Assembly: GCA_030916965.1 (NCBI GenBank)
Contig: JAUPVQ010000005.1
Location: 1-50,581, forward strand
Direction: 5' to 3'
From: Patescibacteria group bacterium
Lineage (GTDB): Bacteria; Patescibacteriota; Minisyncoccia; Phycocordibacterales; UBA9973
DNA length: 50,581 nt
Shown here in pieces: positions 5,599-25,044 of the stretch. The notes below the pieces were generated by a model. It worked only from the letters and a program-made list of their open reading frames with translations, did no database searches and had not been told where the DNA came from. Within the stretch, counting starts at the first letter, position 1, and each line of letters opens with the position of its first letter. The translations under genes were made by a program, and so were the position numbers.

Positions 5599-7149
5599 TT
5601 AATCTTTTCTTAAAAACAAAGGTTCTGTTGGTTTTTTGTTTTCTTTTATCAGATTTAAAATCTTTTCTGATGTTTCTGGAATAATAGGAAGTAGCATTTC
5701 AGCAATACCATGGAGACGCACGACAAGATCCTTAATTAAACTTTTACCTTTTTCTAAATCAACTTTAACAACTTTAAAAGGTTCTGTAGATTGAATAATT
5801 TTATCTACATTTTGAATTTCATTCCAAATAAAATCTGTTGCATGTTTTATTTCAAATTTTTCAAGATAATCAAAGCAAGCTTTTTGCATAGAATTTGTAA
5901 AAGTCTCAGGGCATCCATCCAAATATTTTTCTGAAAGTGTTAGGATACGCGAAGTTAAATTACCTAATCCATTTGCTAGTCCAGAATTATATGCATCTTT
6001 GAATCGCTCTATTGTGAACGGTGAATCTTCAAAATTGCTTACTTCTCGGAGGAGGAAATAGCGAAGTGCATCTGTACCATACTCAGCCACTATATCGCTC
6101 GGGTCTACTACGTTCCCTAGTGTTTTACTCATTTTAAGGCCTCCATCTGCTGTTATAAAGCCATTTACCACGATTTGATGGGAGTTCGGTACATCGGCTG
6201 CCATAAGCATGGCTTGCCACATAGCACTCTGGAAGCGTGTATTGTCCTTACCACAGTATTGCGTCGGATTGCCATTGACCCAGTATTTCTCAAAGAGAGA
6301 TTGCATTTCCCCTCCTCCTTTATAAGGGGGAGGCTGGGTGGGGGTTCCTAAATTAAGAACCTCTCCCCGGCCCTCTCCTTGGTAAGGAGAGGGGGCACCC
6401 TCTGGCCAGCCTAAGGTAGAAATATAATTTGTAAGCGCATCAAACCATACATACATAACTTGCTCCTCATCGCCGGGCACAGGTATCCCCCACGGCATTT
6501 TGGATTTGAGTCGTGAGATCGAGAAGTCTTGCAAGCCATTCTCGACAAAAGAAATAATTTCATTAAAACGAAATTCTGGAATTACAAAGGTAGGATTATT
6601 TTTGTAGAATTCCAAAAGCTTATCTTGGAATGCAGAATACTTAAAGAAGTAATTTTCTTCTTTGATAATTTGCAAATCAATACCTGGATGATCCGGGCAC
6701 TGCCCTTGCTCGTTGAGTTCGCTGTCCGTCTTTTCACTTTCACACCCTACACAATATTTTGCTTCGTAGGTTTTCTTGTAAATATATCCATTGTCGTATA
6801 CACGTTTCCAGAATTCTTGGGCAGCTTGCTCGTGATTACTATCTGTAGTACGAATAAAGTGTATATCATCGCTTACACCAAACATCTTGATTTGATTTTT
6901 AAATGTAGCAAAACCAGCATCTACAAACTCTTGTGCTGTTAATCCATTTGCATTTGCCTTCTCGTAAATTTTTGTGCCATGCTCATCGGTCCCAGTATTG
7001 AAATAAACATCAAAGCCAACGAGCTTTTTGTACCGAGCGATTACGTCGGCACGTACGAACTCCAATGCATGCCCCATATGAAGTGGCGCATTTACATATG
7101 GTAATGTTGTAGTTAGATAAAAAGGTTTTCCAGTATTTTCATTATTCAT
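5599..7149 (-). CDS. metG: methionyl-tRNA synthetase with an in-frame repeat insertion
   Basis: Charges tRNA-Met with methionine. The 516-residue class I synthetase has the HIGH signature as HMGH (24-27), a zinc-knuckle pattern YCVGCE...CPDH in the connective domain, a YVWFDALTNYIS helix, the KMSKS loop as KMSKT (339-343), and an anticodon-binding helical domain. There is no C-terminal EMAP-type domain. Residues of about 251-284 have no counterpart in MetRS: they are the translation of repeat copy C, rich in Pro, Gly and Glu (PSPYQGEGRGEV, PPPYKGGGEM), placed between WPEG and SLFEKYW in what should be a surface loop. The reading frame is kept. It follows the AI-2E permease by 3 bp. Confidence 0.96.
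   Translation of the reverse strand: MNNENTGKPFYLTTTLPYVNAPLHMGHALEFVRADVIARYKKLVGFDVYFNTGTDEHGTKIYEKANANGLTAQEFVDAGFATFKNQIKMFGVSDDIHFIRTTDSNHEQAAQEFWKRVYDNGYIYKKTYEAKYCVGCESEKTDSELNEQGQCPDHPGIDLQIIKEENYFFKYSAFQDKLLEFYKNNPTFVIPEFRFNEIISFVENGLQDFSISRLKSKMPWGIPVPGDEEQVMYVWFDALTNYISTLGWPEGAPSPYQGEGRGEVLNLGTPTQPPPYKGGGEMQSLFEKYWVNGNPTQYCGKDNTRFQSAMWQAMLMAADVPNSHQIVVNGFITADGGLKMSKTLGNVVDPSDIVAEYGTDALRYFLLREVSNFEDSPFTIERFKDAYNSGLANGLGNLTSRILTLSEKYLDGCPETFTNSMQKACFDYLEKFEIKHATDFIWNEIQNVDKIIQSTEPFKVVKVDLEKGKSLIKDLVVRLHGIAEMLLPIIPETSEKILNLIKENKKPTEPLFLRKD
6307..6397 (+). repeat. palindromic repeat copy C, in frame inside metG
   Basis: The same architecture as copy A: hairpin I (6311-6320 with 6324-6333, one mismatch), the AATTAAGAACCTCTCC core (6351-6366), and hairpin II (CCCTCTCCTT at 6371-6380 with AAGGAGAGGG at 6384-6393). 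It is read on the minus strand within metG and adds about 34 codons without a stop. Similar selfish palindromes within genes are known from Rickettsia (RPE). Confidence 0.85.
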
Positions 7150-13804: not shown

Positions 13805-13832
13805 AAAAAACCGTATTCATTTACGGTTTTTT
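13805..13832. terminator. bidirectional intrinsic terminator
   Basis: AAAAAACCGTA-TTCATT-TACGGTTTTTT, a perfect stem with A- and T-tracts on the two sides, between the convergent small membrane protein gene and the HAD gene. Confidence 0.9.
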
Positions 13833-14460
13833 ATTTTAAAATAGTCTCAACTGTATTCAATAAATCTATCGGACTTTCGATTATTTTTTCTGGATTGCCT
13901 AGCCTTAAGGTATGCTCTTTGTGCAAGCCCCATGTGACTCCTATCGATTTAACATTGCATTCATTGGCCTCGCGCACATCACCAAGAGTATCAGTTATAA
14001 AAACTGTATCATCTGGGGTAATTTTGTATTTATCTAATAGATAATTTATTTTTACAACTTTAGAAGAATGAAAGTCGTAACCCAATACTTCCTTGAAACA
14101 AGGGAGCAAATTTTCTTTCTCTAGAAAATTCGATATTATTACAGAAGAAGCCGAGGAAACAATTACTAAATCGTATTTTTCAGTTAATTTCAAAACTGTG
14201 TCGTGCAATATATCACCAACAGAAAAAACTGAATCGAGAGCATTTACATATTTTGTTTCATAATCCTCTGGGTACGCGTACGAATCATCTTTTAGTAATC
14301 TCCTTTGAGTCTCTATAAAATTCCCATGGCTCATCTCTTCAAAACGCTCCCATGTTAAATCTCCGTTTGATGCTTTGTGTAGGCTAAACCAAAATTCTGC
14401 AGTGTTTACAAGCACACCGTCAAAATCAAACATTACTAATTTTTTATTTTCACGATTCAT
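13831..14460 (-). CDS. HAD superfamily hydrolase (beta-phosphoglucomutase/phosphatase-like)
   Basis: Haloacid dehalogenase-type phosphatase of 209 residues. Motif I is VMFDFDGVLVNT (catalytic Asp pair near 11-13), motif II is LVIVSSASS, motif III is the Lys in SSKVVKI, and motif IV is VFITDTLGDVREA. A helical cap lies between motifs I and II, the layout of HAD-IA phosphatases such as phosphoglycolate phosphatase or beta-phosphoglucomutase; the substrate cannot be named. Its ATG overlaps the ileS TGA (ATGA), so it is translationally coupled to the synthetase and shares T-box control. Confidence 0.9.
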   Translation of the reverse strand: MNRENKKLVMFDFDGVLVNTAEFWFSLHKASNGDLTWERFEEMSHGNFIETQRRLLKDDSYAYPEDYETKYVNALDSVFSVGDILHDTVLKLTEKYDLVIVSSASSVIISNFLEKENLLPCFKEVLGYDFHSSKVVKINYLLDKYKITPDDTVFITDTLGDVREANECNVKSIGVTWGLHKEHTLRLGNPEKIIESPIDLLNTVETILK

Positions 14461-17400
14461 TTTATAATCTGAATTTTGAATACAATTTCCCCAATTTTTG
14501 CTTCGGACCCATCATTCTCCCCTTGGTTGATCTCTTTAGCAGATACAGTTTTCTTGAAATCACTTTCAAATTCTTTTATCAATTCTTCGCCTTTTGTGTC
14601 AGTAGAAATCATAAGAGTGATCATGTCGCTTGGCATAAGACCTTCCTTCTTGCGCATATCTTGTACAGCTCGCAACAACTCACGATAATCCCCTTCTCTT
14701 TTTAAATCCTCTGATATATTTGTATTCAAGTCTACACCCTCTTTGTCATTCTTCTCTAAAATAATTTTTTTCAGATTTAACTCATCCTTAATTATTTCAA
14801 TATATTCATCTTTAAATTCTTCATTCCATATTGTTAATTCACCAAGGGGTTGGCGTACGGGTATATTATTTTTCTGGCGTGCTTGTAATCCTAGCGTGAC
14901 CACATTGCGCACATTTTGCATCTCTGTAATTATCTCATTATTTCCAAACTCAAATTCTTCCCAGAAAGCTAGGTGTACACTCTCTACGTCTTCTTCTTGC
15001 TTCAATTTCTGCCAAACGTGCTCTGCGACAAATGGAGTAAACGGTGCCAACAATTTAGAAATATTTTTCAATACAAAATACAAAGTTTGTTTTGCCCCTT
15101 TATTCCCGTCTTTTAGAACTTCGCGTGACCGGCGTAAATACCAGGTAGAAAGGTCCTCAATAAACAAATCAAATGGTCGTGTAGCTTGCGCCATATCGTA
15201 GACTTCCATTTGTTTTGTGACTTCTTTCGACAACTCGCTGTATCTTGTCAGTATCCATTTGTCTAAAACATTTGTGGTTTCAAAATTATTTGTTTCTTTC
15301 TCTAAATTTAGGTCTCTATACAATTCATAAAAAGTTAGTACATTTTCTAATCTTCCTACAATTTTACTCGCAATCTCTTGCACTGTCCTCTCCGAGAAGC
15401 TTACATCTTCCCCTTTCATTAGAGTTGAGGACATAAGGTAGAATCGTAGTGCGTCTACTCCGTATTTATCAAAAAGTATCGATGGGTCTGGAAAATTATT
15501 TTTAGACTTACTCATCTTGCTACCGTCCTCAGCGAGGACTGTACCAGTAGTCACCACATTTTCAAACGGAGCATGGTCAAAAAGAATTGTGGAAATAACA
15601 TGAGAGTAGTAGAACCATGTTCGAGTCTGAGCTATATACTCAGCCACAAATCCTGCAGGGAAATTTGTTTCCTTCCAGTCTGGACGCTCAAATGGATAGT
15701 GGTCCTGTGCAAAAGGCATAGAGCCTGATTCAAACCAGCAATCGATAACCTCGGGAATTCTTTTATACTCTGTGCCCTCTTCATCGACAAGCGTAATTGC
15801 ATCGATATAAGGCCGATGCATATCAAGCTCGTAATTTATATTGTGAGGTATAGGGGTAAAATCTAATTGATAACATTCTGCTGGAACATATCTTTTGTTT
15901 TTGATTAAATTATCAGTTTCCTCTTTTGTAAGTCCTTGATTTACCGCTGGTAGGACCTCAAGACCAATACCATGAGTTACGATTAAAATATTTTTGTTTT
16001 GATACTTTGAATCAATATTATAAATAAATTCTCCAAAACGATTTTTCGCTTCTTGAAAAGACTCTCCACCAGGAATCTTTTTATCCATATTGTCTAAATA
16101 ATCTTCCCGTATTTTCAAAAATTCTGTGAACGGTTGACCATCTAAATCCCCCCAATTTAATTCATGAATACGTGGGTCTATTATTATTTCATCTTTTGAA
16201 AAATTAATCTCTGAAGCAACAATTTCTGCTGTCTGTATTGTTCGTAAAAATGGAGAAGAAATTATCAAATCAATTTTTTTATCTTTTAGACTTTGAGCAG
16301 TATGTTTTGCTTGCTCTATTCCATTTTCGTTAAGATTATATTTCTTTTTAGTATCATAACTTACAATAGAGAGAGCATTGTGTTCCCCTTCCCCATGTCT
16401 CATTACAAAATACTTGTTTCCACTCTTTTTTGTTTTATTTTTTAAATCCTCTATAGAATTTACAAACAAAATCTTACCAGTTTCTGATTTCCAAATTGGC
16501 AAAGGGCTTGCCCAAAAGCGATTGCGGGATATAGTCCAATCTGGAGCATTCTCCATAATATTCTTAAACCTACCCTCTTTTAAGTGCTCAGGTATCCAAT
16601 TCATACTCTTTGCCTTCTCGAGCAGATTTTCTTTTACTTTTTGTATATTTACGAACCAGCTAGGTAGTGCGTAATAAAGGAGTGGTGTATCACAACGATA
16701 GCAGTGAGGGTATGCGTGAATTATTTTCTCTTTTGCAAAGAGTGTTCCTTTGCCAGCAAGATATTTGATCACCAATACATCTGTTGATTGTGGGTCATCT
16801 TTTGGCTTGGCTTTTACATTTGGGAAGTCAGTTACTTCTTTTGTGAAAATTCCATTTGGTTCTACGTGACGAATAAAAGGAATGTTATTTAATTTTGCAA
16901 GATTCATATCATCTTCTCCAAATGCTGGTGCCTCGTGGGCAATACCTGTACCCTGGTCAGCTGTTACAAAATCTGCATGCCAAACTTTCCAAATATTTTC
17001 CTTATTTAGGATGTCCACATTTTTGTAATAATCAAAAACTGGTTCATATGTTAAGCCCACCAATTCACTCCCCTTCACTTCTTTTATGATTTCAGGGTTT
17101 GTAAATTTATCTTTCAATTTATCAAATAAATCTTTTGCCAATATTAAAGTATCATTCCCATTTTTTACATAGATGTAATCAATATTATTATTTACTGCTA
17201 TAGCAGTATTACCTGGAAGAGTCCAAGGTGTTGTGGTCCAAGCCAATAAATAAGTATTTTCTTCTCCAGTTATCTGGAACTTAACATAAACAGAAATATC
17301 TGTAATATCTTTGTAGCTATTATCCATAGCAATTTCGGAATTTGCGATTGGTGTCTCGCAACGCGGACAGTATGCAAGCACGCGCACGCCTTCGTATAGT

Positions 17401-17897
17401 AGTCCTTTGTTGTTCATTTCGCCGAGCGCCCACCACACACTCTCGATGAAGCTATTGTCCATTGTCATATATGCATTGTCGAAGTCTACCCATCGCCCAA
17501 TACGATCCACTGTCTTCTTCCACTCTGCTACATATTTAAGTACCGAGGCGCGAGCATGTTCGGCGAATTTATCTACACCGTATTCCTCGATAGCTTTGCG
17601 TCCAGAAATTCCTAGATCTTTCTCGACAATATTTTCGATTGGCAAACCGTGCGTATCCCAGCCCCATTTGCGAGGTACACGAAATCCGCGCATTGTCTGA
17701 TAGCGCCCGATTACATCTTTTACTGTAGACCCAAGTATATGCCCATAGTGTGGCAAGCCAGTAGCAAAAGGTGGCCCATCATAAAATACGTAGTTCCCTT
17801 TGGGAGCATCCTTTGTAAGTGACTTGTTGAAAACATCATTCTCTTTCCAGAATTTCAATGTCTCCTCTTCTCTTTGTGCGTTTTTTGATTTATCCAT
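14457..17897 (-). CDS. ileS: isoleucyl-tRNA synthetase with inserted histidine-phosphatase domain
   Basis: Charges tRNA-Ile. The 1146-residue protein is of the eukaryote-like type (VIDCWFESGSMPFAQ; HYGH at 50-53; KMSKS at 794-798), with zinc-type motifs CPRCETPIANSE and YRCDTPLLYY and the WTTTPWTLPGN editing-domain motif. Between the SIEDL segment and DMHRPYID, where such enzymes have only a short linker, residues of about 490-690 form a histidine-phosphatase (phosphoglycerate mutase superfamily) domain: VMRHGEGEHN with H501, SSPFLRTIQTAE with the second Arg, the HELNWGDLDG acid region, and VTHGIGLEVLP with H642. All catalytic positions appear intact. The substrate is unknown. Expression is under a T-box; a HAD phosphatase overlaps its end. 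Confidence 0.96.
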   Translation of the reverse strand: MDKSKNAQREEETLKFWKENDVFNKSLTKDAPKGNYVFYDGPPFATGLPHYGHILGSTVKDVIGRYQTMRGFRVPRKWGWDTHGLPIENIVEKDLGISGRKAIEEYGVDKFAEHARASVLKYVAEWKKTVDRIGRWVDFDNAYMTMDNSFIESVWWALGEMNNKGLLYEGVRVLAYCPRCETPIANSEIAMDNSYKDITDISVYVKFQITGEENTYLLAWTTTPWTLPGNTAIAVNNNIDYIYVKNGNDTLILAKDLFDKLKDKFTNPEIIKEVKGSELVGLTYEPVFDYYKNVDILNKENIWKVWHADFVTADQGTGIAHEAPAFGEDDMNLAKLNNIPFIRHVEPNGIFTKEVTDFPNVKAKPKDDPQSTDVLVIKYLAGKGTLFAKEKIIHAYPHCYRCDTPLLYYALPSWFVNIQKVKENLLEKAKSMNWIPEHLKEGRFKNIMENAPDWTISRNRFWASPLPIWKSETGKILFVNSIEDLKNKTKKSGNKYFVMRHGEGEHNALSIVSYDTKKKYNLNENGIEQAKHTAQSLKDKKIDLIISSPFLRTIQTAEIVASEINFSKDEIIIDPRIHELNWGDLDGQPFTEFLKIREDYLDNMDKKIPGGESFQEAKNRFGEFIYNIDSKYQNKNILIVTHGIGLEVLPAVNQGLTKEETDNLIKNKRYVPAECYQLDFTPIPHNINYELDMHRPYIDAITLVDEEGTEYKRIPEVIDCWFESGSMPFAQDHYPFERPDWKETNFPAGFVAEYIAQTRTWFYYSHVISTILFDHAPFENVVTTGTVLAEDGSKMSKSKNNFPDPSILFDKYGVDALRFYLMSSTLMKGEDVSFSERTVQEIASKIVGRLENVLTFYELYRDLNLEKETNNFETTNVLDKWILTRYSELSKEVTKQMEVYDMAQATRPFDLFIEDLSTWYLRRSREVLKDGNKGAKQTLYFVLKNISKLLAPFTPFVAEHVWQKLKQEEDVESVHLAFWEEFEFGNNEIITEMQNVRNVVTLGLQARQKNNIPVRQPLGELTIWNEEFKDEYIEIIKDELNLKKIILEKNDKEGVDLNTNISEDLKREGDYRELLRAVQDMRKKEGLMPSDMITLMISTDTKGEELIKEFESDFKKTVSAKEINQGENDGSEAKIGEIVFKIQIIK

Positions 17898-22173: not shown

Positions 22174-22653
22174 TTATTGCCCACCAAGCTCTTCGAGTGC
22201 TTTTGTTGCATAGAATTTAATATTTGGAATAATCTCTGTATTATCTAAGTCTTCCTTTGTAAACCATTTCGTCTCTACCCCTTTCTCGTGGTCTAATACA
22301 GATTCTGAGACAACATCGGTGTTGCTTGTAGCGAAATAGACAAATACAACATGCTCGTGAATTTCAGTTACAGGGTGCCTACCAAAATATCTTGGTGGGA
22401 TTAAATATTTATATCCTTTATTTTTAGGATCATTTTCATCTGGACCATCTGCACTACCTGCGATTTGTATATCCAGACCCACTTCCTCTTTCACTTCACG
22501 AATAGCCGCCTGGACAGGATCCTCGTCGAGCTCAATATGCCCTCCAACAGAAAACCAATCTTTATACTTATCATGCATACGAAGAAGGACTTTATTTTTA
22601 TGAACAATAAATACTTCGGAACAAAAATCAATTTTTTCGTGAATGTGGGCCAT
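22174..22653 (-). CDS. Nudix hydrolase
   Basis: Nucleoside-diphosphate-linked hydrolase, 159 residues. The Nudix box is complete: GGHIELDEDPVQAAIREVKEEVGL (described as positions about 37-60), matching GX5EX7REUXEEXGU. Upstream, KVLLRMHDKYKDWFSVGG is the usual strand-turn. The substrate (a nucleotide, sugar-nucleotide or other) cannot be read from the sequence. It lies 3 bp after a four-TM protein gene and is the first of three Nudix genes within 2.3 kb. Confidence 0.93.
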   Translation of the reverse strand: MAHIHEKIDFCSEVFIVHKNKVLLRMHDKYKDWFSVGGHIELDEDPVQAAIREVKEEVGLDIQIAGSADGPDENDPKNKGYKYLIPPRYFGRHPVTEIHEHVVFVYFATSNTDVVSESVLDHEKGVETKWFTKEDLDNTEIIPNIKFYATKALEELGGQ

Positions 22654-22656
22654 CTT

Positions 22657-22989
22657 TTATAAATTCAAAATTTTAATAAATCTTTTCATTACGACAAAGC
22701 AATATCCCCACAAGAATGGCAGCCACAGTGGCATAAGCCCTAGCAAGCTATTACGAACAAAAGTTTCTACTCCAGTGCTGATAAACATGACTTCGGAGAA
22801 AATCATCACAAAAAATCCAATGAAAAATATTACAATCTCTTTTCTATCCATTTTTACAAAAAAAGAAATTAAAATAATACCAATAAATAGTGCTGTAAGA
22901 ATATAATCATTTTGAACAAATGGGATCAACCCTATCATTAAAAAAATTGGGATTGTATTTAATATTATTAATTGGATTTTATTTTTCAT
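22657..22989 (-). CDS. small four-TM membrane protein
   Basis: Unknown function; 110 residues when started at 22989. Four hydrophobic helices are visible: IQLIILNTIPIFLMIGLIPF, YILTALFIGIILISFFV, IVIFFIGFFVMIFSEVMF and LLGLMPLWLPFLWGYCF. A longer reading starts at 23019, but TATAAT lies exactly six bases before the internal ATG, which fits the leaderless promoters of this window and decides the start. It precedes a Nudix hydrolase by 3 bp. It could be a small permease or a membrane anchor; no motif supports either. Confidence 0.7.
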   Translation of the reverse strand: MKNKIQLIILNTIPIFLMIGLIPFVQNDYILTALFIGIILISFFVKMDRKEIVIFFIGFFVMIFSEVMFISTGVETFVRNSLLGLMPLWLPFLWGYCFVVMKRFIKILNL

Positions 22990-22995
22990 ATAAGT

Positions 22996-23001
22996 ATTAT
23001 A
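22996..23001 (-). promoter_or_regulatory. -10 box of a leaderless promoter (four-TM protein)
   Basis: TATAAT on the minus strand, then ACTTAT, then the ATG at 22989. Confidence 0.65.
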
Positions 23002-23023
23002 CACCAATCGGTAAAACATATTT

Positions 23024-23575
23024 TTATATATATTCTTCGCAGAGTTCCTTGTATAACTCTGGTTTTACTTTTTTAAAATATTCTTCCCTTTTCACTATTC
23101 CATTGACTTCAGGTACCCCAAAAGACTTACCGAATTCTAAAATTTTATTTTGGGCATTTTGCACTTCGTCTTTGCTTTCTACCATAATCTCTACCTCGAC
23201 AACACTCAGTCCGAAATCGAGCTCATCTACGCAAATTTCAAATTCACCGTTTTTATATTTCTTTCTTTTTGTAGAGTAATCTATAAAAGGCTTCATGTTT
23301 GCATTAATGAAATCCACTAGAGGAATTTGAATATTAAAAAAGTTATTAATTTCCTCTTCTGTCTCGAGCTCCTCGGCAACACCACCCCCGCTACCCACCT
23401 TTAGTTCCCAACCACCGTTGCGATTGCGTAGGCGTGTACCCTTTTTAAACATACGATAGTCTGGGTAATCATAATAAACATCATGCAAAATCTTCTCACC
23501 AAGAAATTCCGCATCTTTAAGCATTGCGTTCAATTGCTCCTCGTTGGGTTTAAATTTTTTCTCGACTTCGATCAT
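23024..23575 (-). CDS. CYTH domain protein (class IV adenylate cyclase/triphosphatase-like)
   Basis: CYTH superfamily protein of 183 residues. It begins MIEVEKKF, the conserved ExExK phosphate/metal-binding strand. It continues with a YYDYPDYRMFKKGTRLRNRN strand pair (Arg/Lys tunnel residues), WELKVG, and FEICVDELDFGLSVVEVEIMV with the paired acidic residues near the end. The family hydrolyses or cyclises triphosphates (thiamine triphosphatase, inorganic triphosphatase, adenylate cyclase); which reaction applies here is unknown. It overlaps the upstream Nudix gene by four bases. Confidence 0.9.
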   Translation of the reverse strand: MIEVEKKFKPNEEQLNAMLKDAEFLGEKILHDVYYDYPDYRMFKKGTRLRNRNGGWELKVGSGGGVAEELETEEEINNFFNIQIPLVDFINANMKPFIDYSTKRKKYKNGEFEICVDELDFGLSVVEVEIMVESKDEVQNAQNKILEFGKSFGVPEVNGIVKREEYFKKVKPELYKELCEEYI

Positions 23576-24003
23576 TTATTTATTTTGCTATCGTGATAAA
23601 TTTCTTTATTTTTATAACTTTGTATTGAAAGCTTGGTCATAGAGTACAGAGGCTCTGGCAGATTATCTATTTCATACCAACCCCAGCTCTCGCACTTCTC
23701 GGGCTCTAGAACCTGTGGCTCGCCACTCTCCCAATCAGCAGTGAAAGAAATATTTACAAAATGTTTTGGTGCATAGGACAAATCATTGGCAACGTGAAGA
23801 AATTTAAGGTTATTTATTTTTACTCCACACTCTTCCAGGACTTCTCTTTTGGCGCATTCATCAATACTCTCCATGTATTCTAAGTGTCCTCCAGGAGAAG
23901 AATATTCCCCACTACCATGAGCACCTTTACGCTTACCAAGTAAAATTTTCCCGTCTTTGAAAATCACTACCCCTGTACCAACTCTTGCTTGTGGTGTTTC
24001 CAT
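23572..24003 (-). CDS. Nudix hydrolase (NUDT15-like)
   Basis: 143 residues. The start ARVGTGVVIFKDGKILLGKRKGAHGSGEYSSPGGHLEYMES is very close in pattern to MutT/NUDT15-type enzymes, with the Nudix box running through CAKREVLEECGV. Members hydrolyse modified or normal nucleoside triphosphates, so house-cleaning of the nucleotide pool is the likely role. It overlaps the CYTH gene by four bases and follows another Nudix gene after 4 bp. Confidence 0.93.
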   Translation of the reverse strand: METPQARVGTGVVIFKDGKILLGKRKGAHGSGEYSSPGGHLEYMESIDECAKREVLEECGVKINNLKFLHVANDLSYAPKHFVNISFTADWESGEPQVLEPEKCESWGWYEIDNLPEPLYSMTKLSIQSYKNKEIYHDSKINK

Positions 24004-24007
24004 ATAT

Positions 24008-24445
24008 TTATATTAAACCATTATCTACAACATACCTAATCATGTCCTTTTGGTCATATGCAATATCTAAATTCAAGGCCTCGTTTGGGTCTATCCATTT
24101 TATTTCTTCTACCTCCTCTATTTGATTCACTTTCGGTACGCCCGAAACTATCTTACAAATATGTGGCAATGCGATTCGGGAATGTTTTTTAATTGGTAAA
24201 TTATTGGTATCAAAGTATTGGCCAATAAATTTTATTACTTCTATTTCCACCCCAATTTCTTCTCGAACTTCTCTTTTCACTGCATCTTCTACCTTCTCGC
24301 CCCATTCCATCCAACCACCAGGCAAACACCAGCATCCAGGATATGTATCCATAGTACTTGCCCGCTTCTCAAGCAAAATCCGCCCCATATCATTGAGAAT
24401 GATTGCATCTACCCCTACCCATGGATGATCCTTGTTTGTATTCAT
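24008..24445 (-). CDS. Nudix hydrolase
   Basis: 145 residues with VGVDAIILNDMGRILLEKRAS, then CWCLPGGWMEWGE and the box end VKREVREEIGVE. The middle part carries YFDTNNLPIKKHSRIALPH, and an EEIKWIDPNEAL segment follows, as in ADP-ribose or MutT-like enzymes that act on nucleotide derivatives. The exact substrate is open. It overlaps the upstream HAD gene by four bases and belongs to the glyA-HAD-Nudix-Nudix-CYTH run. Confidence 0.92.
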   Translation of the reverse strand: MNTNKDHPWVGVDAIILNDMGRILLEKRASTMDTYPGCWCLPGGWMEWGEKVEDAVKREVREEIGVEIEVIKFIGQYFDTNNLPIKKHSRIALPHICKIVSGVPKVNQIEEVEEIKWIDPNEALNLDIAYDQKDMIRYVVDNGLI

Positions 24446-25044
24446 AGATTAATTCCTAATTGCTTTAAATAATTTTTAAATGAATTACTGTCTGTATAAA
24501 CAAAACCATTAATACCTAAATTAATAGCACTATCAACATTCGGCTTATTGTCATCAATAAACAAACATTCTTCCGGCTTTGCCTTAATTTTATTTAATGT
24601 ATATAAAAAAATATCATCATTTGGTTTTACCATCCCTATTTCCGAAGAAATAATGATATCATCAAAAAGTGCTTTAAATTCTGGATATTCTTGGTATATT
24701 TTTCGCTCAAAAAAAGAAGAGTTGCCATTTGAAAGTAAGGCTGTCTTAAAACCACTATTTTTTAATTTTTTTATTACATCTGATAAGTTTGTATCTATTT
24801 TGAGAAAACTATCAATTTCACTGCGTAGCTCCTCTTTGGTTGAATTTACCCCTTCATATTTTGAAAAATATAGAACTATATCATCTTCTGATAAAATTCC
24901 TAAATCAAATTGCTGAAATACTTTATGAAGATTTTCATCTATTAATCCGTGCTTAAGTCTGTTTTCCTTATACCACCCATTTAACAGAGGGTCACAAATA
25001 ACCCCAAAACAGTCAAAAATAAATGTTGTAATCTTTGGATTCAT
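24442..25044 (-). CDS. HAD superfamily hydrolase (HAD-IA, YihX-like)
   Basis: 200 residues. Motif I reads TFIFDCFGVICDP. The second Asp of the usual DxD is a Phe-Gly context here (DCFGV), as in several HAD-IA members. Motif II is FKTALLSNGNSSF, the motif III Lys is in MVKPNDDIF, and motif IV is CLFIDDNKPNVDSA. A helical cap lies between about residues 20 and 85. A small phosphatase acting on a sugar phosphate or nucleotide is likely. It follows glyA by 3 bp and overlaps the next Nudix gene. Confidence 0.88.
   Translation of the reverse strand: MNPKITTFIFDCFGVICDPLLNGWYKENRLKHGLIDENLHKVFQQFDLGILSEDDIVLYFSKYEGVNSTKEELRSEIDSFLKIDTNLSDVIKKLKNSGFKTALLSNGNSSFFERKIYQEYPEFKALFDDIIISSEIGMVKPNDDIFLYTLNKIKAKPEECLFIDDNKPNVDSAINLGINGFVYTDSNSFKNYLKQLGINL

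Follow-up and report, generated by a model that had tools for sequence, protein, structure and literature searches.

We found that the isoleucyl-tRNA synthetase (IleRS) encoded in a 50,581-nt stretch of Patescibacteria DNA (hereafter the window) contains a histidine phosphatase domain nested in its CP3 loop, and we consider it rather likely that this is an active branch-1 histidine phosphatase within a working synthetase that behaves as an exchangeable unit. Synthetases are textbook examples of conserved enzymes, and the ultra-small Patescibacteria are believed to have lost most of their accessory functions. The gene offers a case in which a domain has been replaced within a gene essential for translation.

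The ileS gene (14457..17897, minus strand) is a single unbroken frame of 1146 amino acids that scores 868.6 bits against the TIGR00392 ileS model (cut-off 621.4). The N-terminal part (16437..17897, minus strand) includes the Rossmann half with the HYGH motif (17739-17750, minus strand; residues 50-53), the CP1 editing domain, CP2 and the start of CP3, while the C-terminal part (14457..15833, minus strand) comprises the end of CP3 (HRPYID), the second Rossmann half, the anticodon-binding domain and DUF5915, with the KMSKS motif at 15504-15518 (minus strand; residues 794-798). Both signature motifs are therefore located where the original prediction had claimed that the two synthetase halves keep them, the CP1 editing motifs are also found, and the class I fold was modeled by AlphaFold2 with confidence over the whole chain (mean pLDDT 92, pTM 0.85). 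The best matches of this model in the PDB using Foldseek are type-2 IleRSs, with a TM-score by target of 0.83 for Priestia megaterium IleRS2 (8c8v) and also 0.92 for Thermus IleRS (1ile). These two enzymes share the synthetase fold, HYGH, KMSKS and CP1 editing motifs with the window protein but, unlike it, have a CP3 without an enzyme domain. The window gene thus appears to be an intact, functional-looking type-2 IleRS that is predicted to load isoleucine. The overlapping HAD phosphatase gene noted downstream in the original prediction does exist (13831..14460, minus strand; 4-nt overlap with the ileS 3′ end), yet among the loci compared a close homologue adjoins ileS in only four relatives, all of the same family. 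We dropped it as a partner, and this family-level neighbor is probably not part of the phosphatase-IleRS system.

Alignment with uninterrupted IleRSs (G080, G087, G271 and others) places the extra segment, a cassette with its linkers, at 15834..16436 (minus strand; residues ~488-688), in the CP3 loop between ..SIEDLK and ELDMHRPYID. Pfam detects His_Phos_1 between the two tRNA-synt_1 halves, at 15915..16409 (minus strand; residues 497-661, E=2.4e-33; 115.9 bits versus a PF00300 gathering cut-off of 21.7), with the complete family signature of the RHG histidine, two arginines, acidic residue and second histidine, and with R500-H501, S548, R552, E579, R620 and H642 in place. The earlier reading of a full histidine phosphatase at residues of about 490-690, in frame between conserved IleRS segments and with catalytic histidines at 501 and 642, was thus correct. 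Across the inserts collected, all 111 from IleRS have R500, H501, R552, E579 (or D) and H642, none of the homologues having lost its catalytic residues, and 12 of 13 from ValRS have the same five; the collection was made by profile, which favors recognizable members, yet all 20 interrupted genes fetched from the same class were recognized. In our alignment A2 of the inserts, R500, H501, S548, R552, R620 and H642 are invariant and E579 nearly so, at a mean column identity of 33%. The isolated domain was also modeled with confidence (pLDDT 94), and its nearest solved structures are small-molecule phosphatases. Fold and catalytic residues resemble those of phosphoserine phosphatase 1 (4ij5/4ij6), the glucosyl-3-phosphoglycerate phosphatase Rv2419c (4qih), PhoE (1h2e), CobC (6nru) and a riboflavin-pathway phosphatase (9mmh). 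These branch-1 histidine phosphatases are free-standing and 20-26% identical to the window domain, which also falls under every listed NCBIfam phosphatase equivalog cut-off, so a substrate cannot be transferred from them. Judged by these residues, the nested domain is probably complete and catalytically competent, and of the two roles initially suggested for it, removing a phosphate or regulating the enzyme, the residues invariant in 111 of 111 inserts support a probable phosphatase.

The insertion is near-universal in the order. In a sample of 68 genomes, mostly one per genus, 65 have His_Phos_1 in an IleRS-sized frame or, at the end of a contig, in a long frame, the exceptions being G087, G353 and G595, and in 24 of the 68, including the window genome, the IleRS insert is the only His_Phos_1. 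Such retention points to a conserved phosphatase function. This function would not be universally required, since G087 has no His_Phos_1 match anywhere in its genome. The uninterrupted G087 gene keeps a segment, LPQNENGEPDLHKP, similar to the linker found to the right of the insert in genes that have one (L303, LPHNENYELDLHKP), a likeness suggesting that its insert was lost secondarily. Among class genomes with an IleRS match, ~98 of 135 have an interruption near model position 500 and ~37 have none, and every one of 20 interrupted class loci fetched carries the phosphatase. Elsewhere in the phylum, outside the class, the insertion is a minority trait. Carriers among 80 named loci are exclusively Patescibacteria (Nomurabacteria, Yanofskybacteria, Paceibacterota, Peregrinibacteria) or unlabeled bacteria, and phage records yielded distant phosphatases only. 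One family has tandem phosphatase pairs in nine loci of ~1440-1530 aa, plus L296, and the 1572-aa IleRS of L066 (2667-7382) has three His_Phos domains, the third of which lies elsewhere, in the C-terminal half, at a site common to L067. On a FastTree host tree, presence of the insert needs at least 24 state changes, a count that includes host transfers, and the IleRS inserts do not form a single clade in the phosphatase tree; by these trees, gains or losses of the insert have been many. In a Yanofskybacteria ileS (L237, 3502-5460), the C-terminal frame starts inside the cassette, either by frameshift, sequencing error or a split gene.

Comparison of hosts shows that the cassette is exchanged. 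The window gene (L001) and its same-genus counterpart L008 are 97% and 96% identical in the 150 residues on each side of the phosphatase but only 38% identical within it, with a dN of 0.60 in the phosphatase against 0.02 and 0.09 in the flanks, and their nucleotide alignment falls off at about codons 497 and 685. The opposite arrangement is found in L003 and L027, which share 70% identity in the phosphatase and 44% and 48% in the synthetase flanks, and in L004 compared with L303, L305 and L307 (78% versus 41-43%). Over 114 sequences, leaving out L067 pairs for their short flanks, the Spearman correlation of identities is 0.77 between the two flanks and 0.20 between flank and phosphatase, and within the order it is 0.69 between N- and C-terminal halves and 0.05 between N-terminal half and phosphatase; these values are descriptions rather than tests because the pairs are not independent. 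Among 96 pairs with flanks at least 80% identical, the median phosphatase identity is 43%, against a background of 37%, with 72 pairs below 50% and nine at 65% or more. Cassettes that are shared between hosts have a dN of 0.027-0.18 and a dN/dS of ~0.03-0.15 (0.03 for L303/L307, 0.06 for L084/L087, 0.07 for L304/L311 and 0.15 for L028/L037), near the flank values, although the ratios are rough as dS approaches saturation in several pairs. Since the rate of evolution of shared cassettes is about as low as that of their hosts, fast evolution is ruled out as the source of the divergence, and the cassettes have been replaced. By sequence, the phosphatase has thus been repeatedly swapped in place for others of the same fold at a constant site, and the substitution ratios show that the cassette is under purifying selection. 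Dozens of such natural cassettes, in hosts that are almost identical, make it possible to compare specificity. The anticodon-binding region may hold a second exchanged segment, with L001 and L008 only 50-72% identical at residues 841-1080, below the catalytic core.

Among class loci whose ileS is uninterrupted, 8 of 32 have a free-standing phosphatase gene upstream that directly adjoins or overlaps ileS (L105, L111, L114, L117, L120, L123, L131, L132), compared with none of 40 comparison loci, half of them interrupted class loci and half uninterrupted loci from outside the class (Fisher p=0.0009, with kinship ignored). Two further uninterrupted loci (L118, L102) have one nearby. Some adjacent copies are placed among the IleRS inserts in the phosphatase tree, such as L120 with L142 and L049, with weak support. 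By the original prediction, close relatives lacking the insertion but with a free-standing phosphatase at the same place would point to assembly error. Such genes do exist beside ileS; they occur in other genomes with other sequences, while the fusion is found in dozens of independent genomes, and the pattern therefore indicates an alternation between nested and adjacent forms rather than an assembly error. Alternation between fusion and adjacency is a usual sign of functional association. From gene order, a free phosphatase gene beside ileS can take the place of the nested one. Adjacency without fusion hints at a functional tie beyond what co-expression alone would call for, a point against our preferred reading. 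The natural deletion in G087 and the gene-separate versions (G444 and others) are usable as controls.

By the family mechanism, H501 would take the phosphate, H642, R500 and R552 would bind it and E579 would serve as the acid/base, with a small soluble phosphomonoester as the presumed class of substrate. Nesting in an essential, always expressed gene would provide co-expression and hinder loss. The conserved linkers (KKSGNKY..MRHG on the left, LPHN..YELDLHRPYID on the right) may act as recombination anchors, and catalytic-core sequence could offer another route. The phosphatase is not expected to carry out a chemical step of aminoacylation or editing. As whole phosphatases are exchanged while the active site stays fixed, what varies seems to be their preference for substrates and not whether activity is present. 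Inteins and other nested elements likewise lie in frame in essential genes with a patchy distribution. The window insert is unlike inteins, as the Pfam scan found no splicing or nuclease domain and the enzyme would stay in the protein.

Nested enzymes also occur in other synthetases of the phylum. A phosphatase is found in ValRS at a position comparable to the IleRS insert, though within the window class ValRS insertion is uncommon. One ValRS (L089, 1695-5537) nests a serine hydrolase and His_Phos, another (L076, 1827-5657) has a HAD domain, serine hydrolase and His_Phos in one chain, a third (L099) has the phosphatase with ASCH and a fourth (L290) the serine hydrolase alone. The IleRS of L067 combines GNAT with the phosphatase, and that of L136 has NUDIX. 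LeuRSs of the window class, with lengths of 1043-1335 aa, carry Ham1 plus NUDIX (L282, 720-4724; L287, 806-4417), NUDIX plus serine hydrolase (L284, 621-4082; L285, 495-3926) or HAD (L288, 408-3536). A LeuRS with His_Phos was not borne out, the large LeuRSs fetched holding these other domains. One plausible if tentative reading, covering IleRS, ValRS and LeuRS and the His_Phos, NUDIX, Ham1, HAD, serine hydrolase, GNAT and ASCH domains, is that branched-chain synthetases serve Patescibacteria as docking platforms, whose fixed loops take in, exchange and stack small enzymes across the phylum under selection that favors changes in cassette specificity.

A coupled reaction, in which the phosphatase handles a substrate or product of the synthetase (AMP, a dinucleotide or a damaged tRNA end) and the tether keeps the two close, would fit the position of the phosphatase in or beside ileS specifically, its occurrence in ValRS at a similar position, and the NUDIX, Ham1, HAD or serine hydrolase domains of class LeuRS. 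Nucleotides are common substrates of NUDIX and Ham1 families. A fixed partner, however, predicts co-evolution of cassette and host, whereas the identities of the two are nearly uncorrelated, which argues against a step closely adapted to aminoacylation; nor do serine hydrolase, GNAT and ASCH domains share such a substrate. We therefore regard this coupling as unlikely. Protection of the synthetase by inactivation of phosphorylated inhibitors, with cassette exchange as the trace of an arms race, is in our view less likely still. Acetyltransferase self-immunity to nucleotide-peptide antibiotics is known, and replacement of cassettes across hosts with conserved catalysis, as well as the several enzyme types in branched-chain synthetases, would agree with such a role, but we found no inhibitor and no biosynthetic genes, and near-universal retention in the order exceeds what is expected of a resistance trait. 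PADLOC gave no defense match for the insert, with one marginal match (E 0.0053) of the whole protein lying outside it, and a defense system was rejected.

It is very improbable that the insert is the phosphoglycerate mutase of the cell. The window genome (95.7% complete) has an enolase, the insert as its only His_Phos_1 and no Metalloenzyme-type mutase found, and the insert may have this role there. The four genomes in which it may do so, having an enolase, the insert as the only His_Phos_1 and no further mutase, are G000, G074, G085 and G089. An enolase match is nevertheless absent in 15 of the 24 order genomes with the insert as the only His_Phos_1, which makes a general, conserved mutase role unlikely; scores are far below the cut-offs for dPGM_arch (NF038349, 87.2 bits versus 225) and GpmB (NF002901, 63.9 versus 261), and in two relatives (G066, G353) a separate phosphatase adjoins enolase. 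A passive structural spacer would suit a CP3 loop that tolerates insertion with the synthetase fold kept, but is scarcely credible for a domain with invariant catalytic residues in so divergent a sequence. An assembly or annotation artefact, conceivable for genomes that are probably mostly metagenome-derived, was rejected as having practically no chance of being correct, as the same in-frame insert in dozens of independent genomes, including the single-contig G061 and G017, excludes chance and mis-assembly.

Returning to the exchangeable phosphatase cassette, the original prediction knew of no characterized IleRS with this domain, and we likewise found no counterpart or description of such an insertion in the literature searched, mostly outside subscription papers and preprints. 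The NCBIfam family ileS_w_GNAT (NF040702) is also an IleRS with an extra enzyme domain, but an acetyltransferase, and the window protein scores 342.5 bits against its cut-off of 1999. IleRS and the phosphatase fold are both ordinary, and synthetases with accessory domains are known; the enzyme nested in CP3, its order-wide retention and its exchange as a unit are not described in the papers searched. There is a fair chance that the wider pattern over several synthetases is categorically new. Mycoplasma penetrans MetRS (PMC13215547) also has an extra synthetase domain in a small genome, but there it is fused at a terminus and is no internal cassette subject to exchange.

A membrane protein with a VTT domain ends in a C-terminal His_Phos domain in another lineage of the phylum (L096, 2867-4177; L097, 2773-4158), with VTT assigned by Pfam in L096 and L097 being its sister in the phosphatase tree. 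The window MetRS (5599-7149, minus strand) has an unusual stretch rich in Pro and Gly (SPYQGEGRGEVLNLGTPTQPPPYKGGGEMQ) with the look of a repeat inserted in frame, while a repeat search of the gene found no clear repeat. Also in the window, consecutive small genes at 22174-25044 (minus strand) resemble, by eye, three NUDIX hydrolases, a CYTH-like protein and a HAD hydrolase, and enzyme kinds seen there recur nested in synthetases elsewhere.
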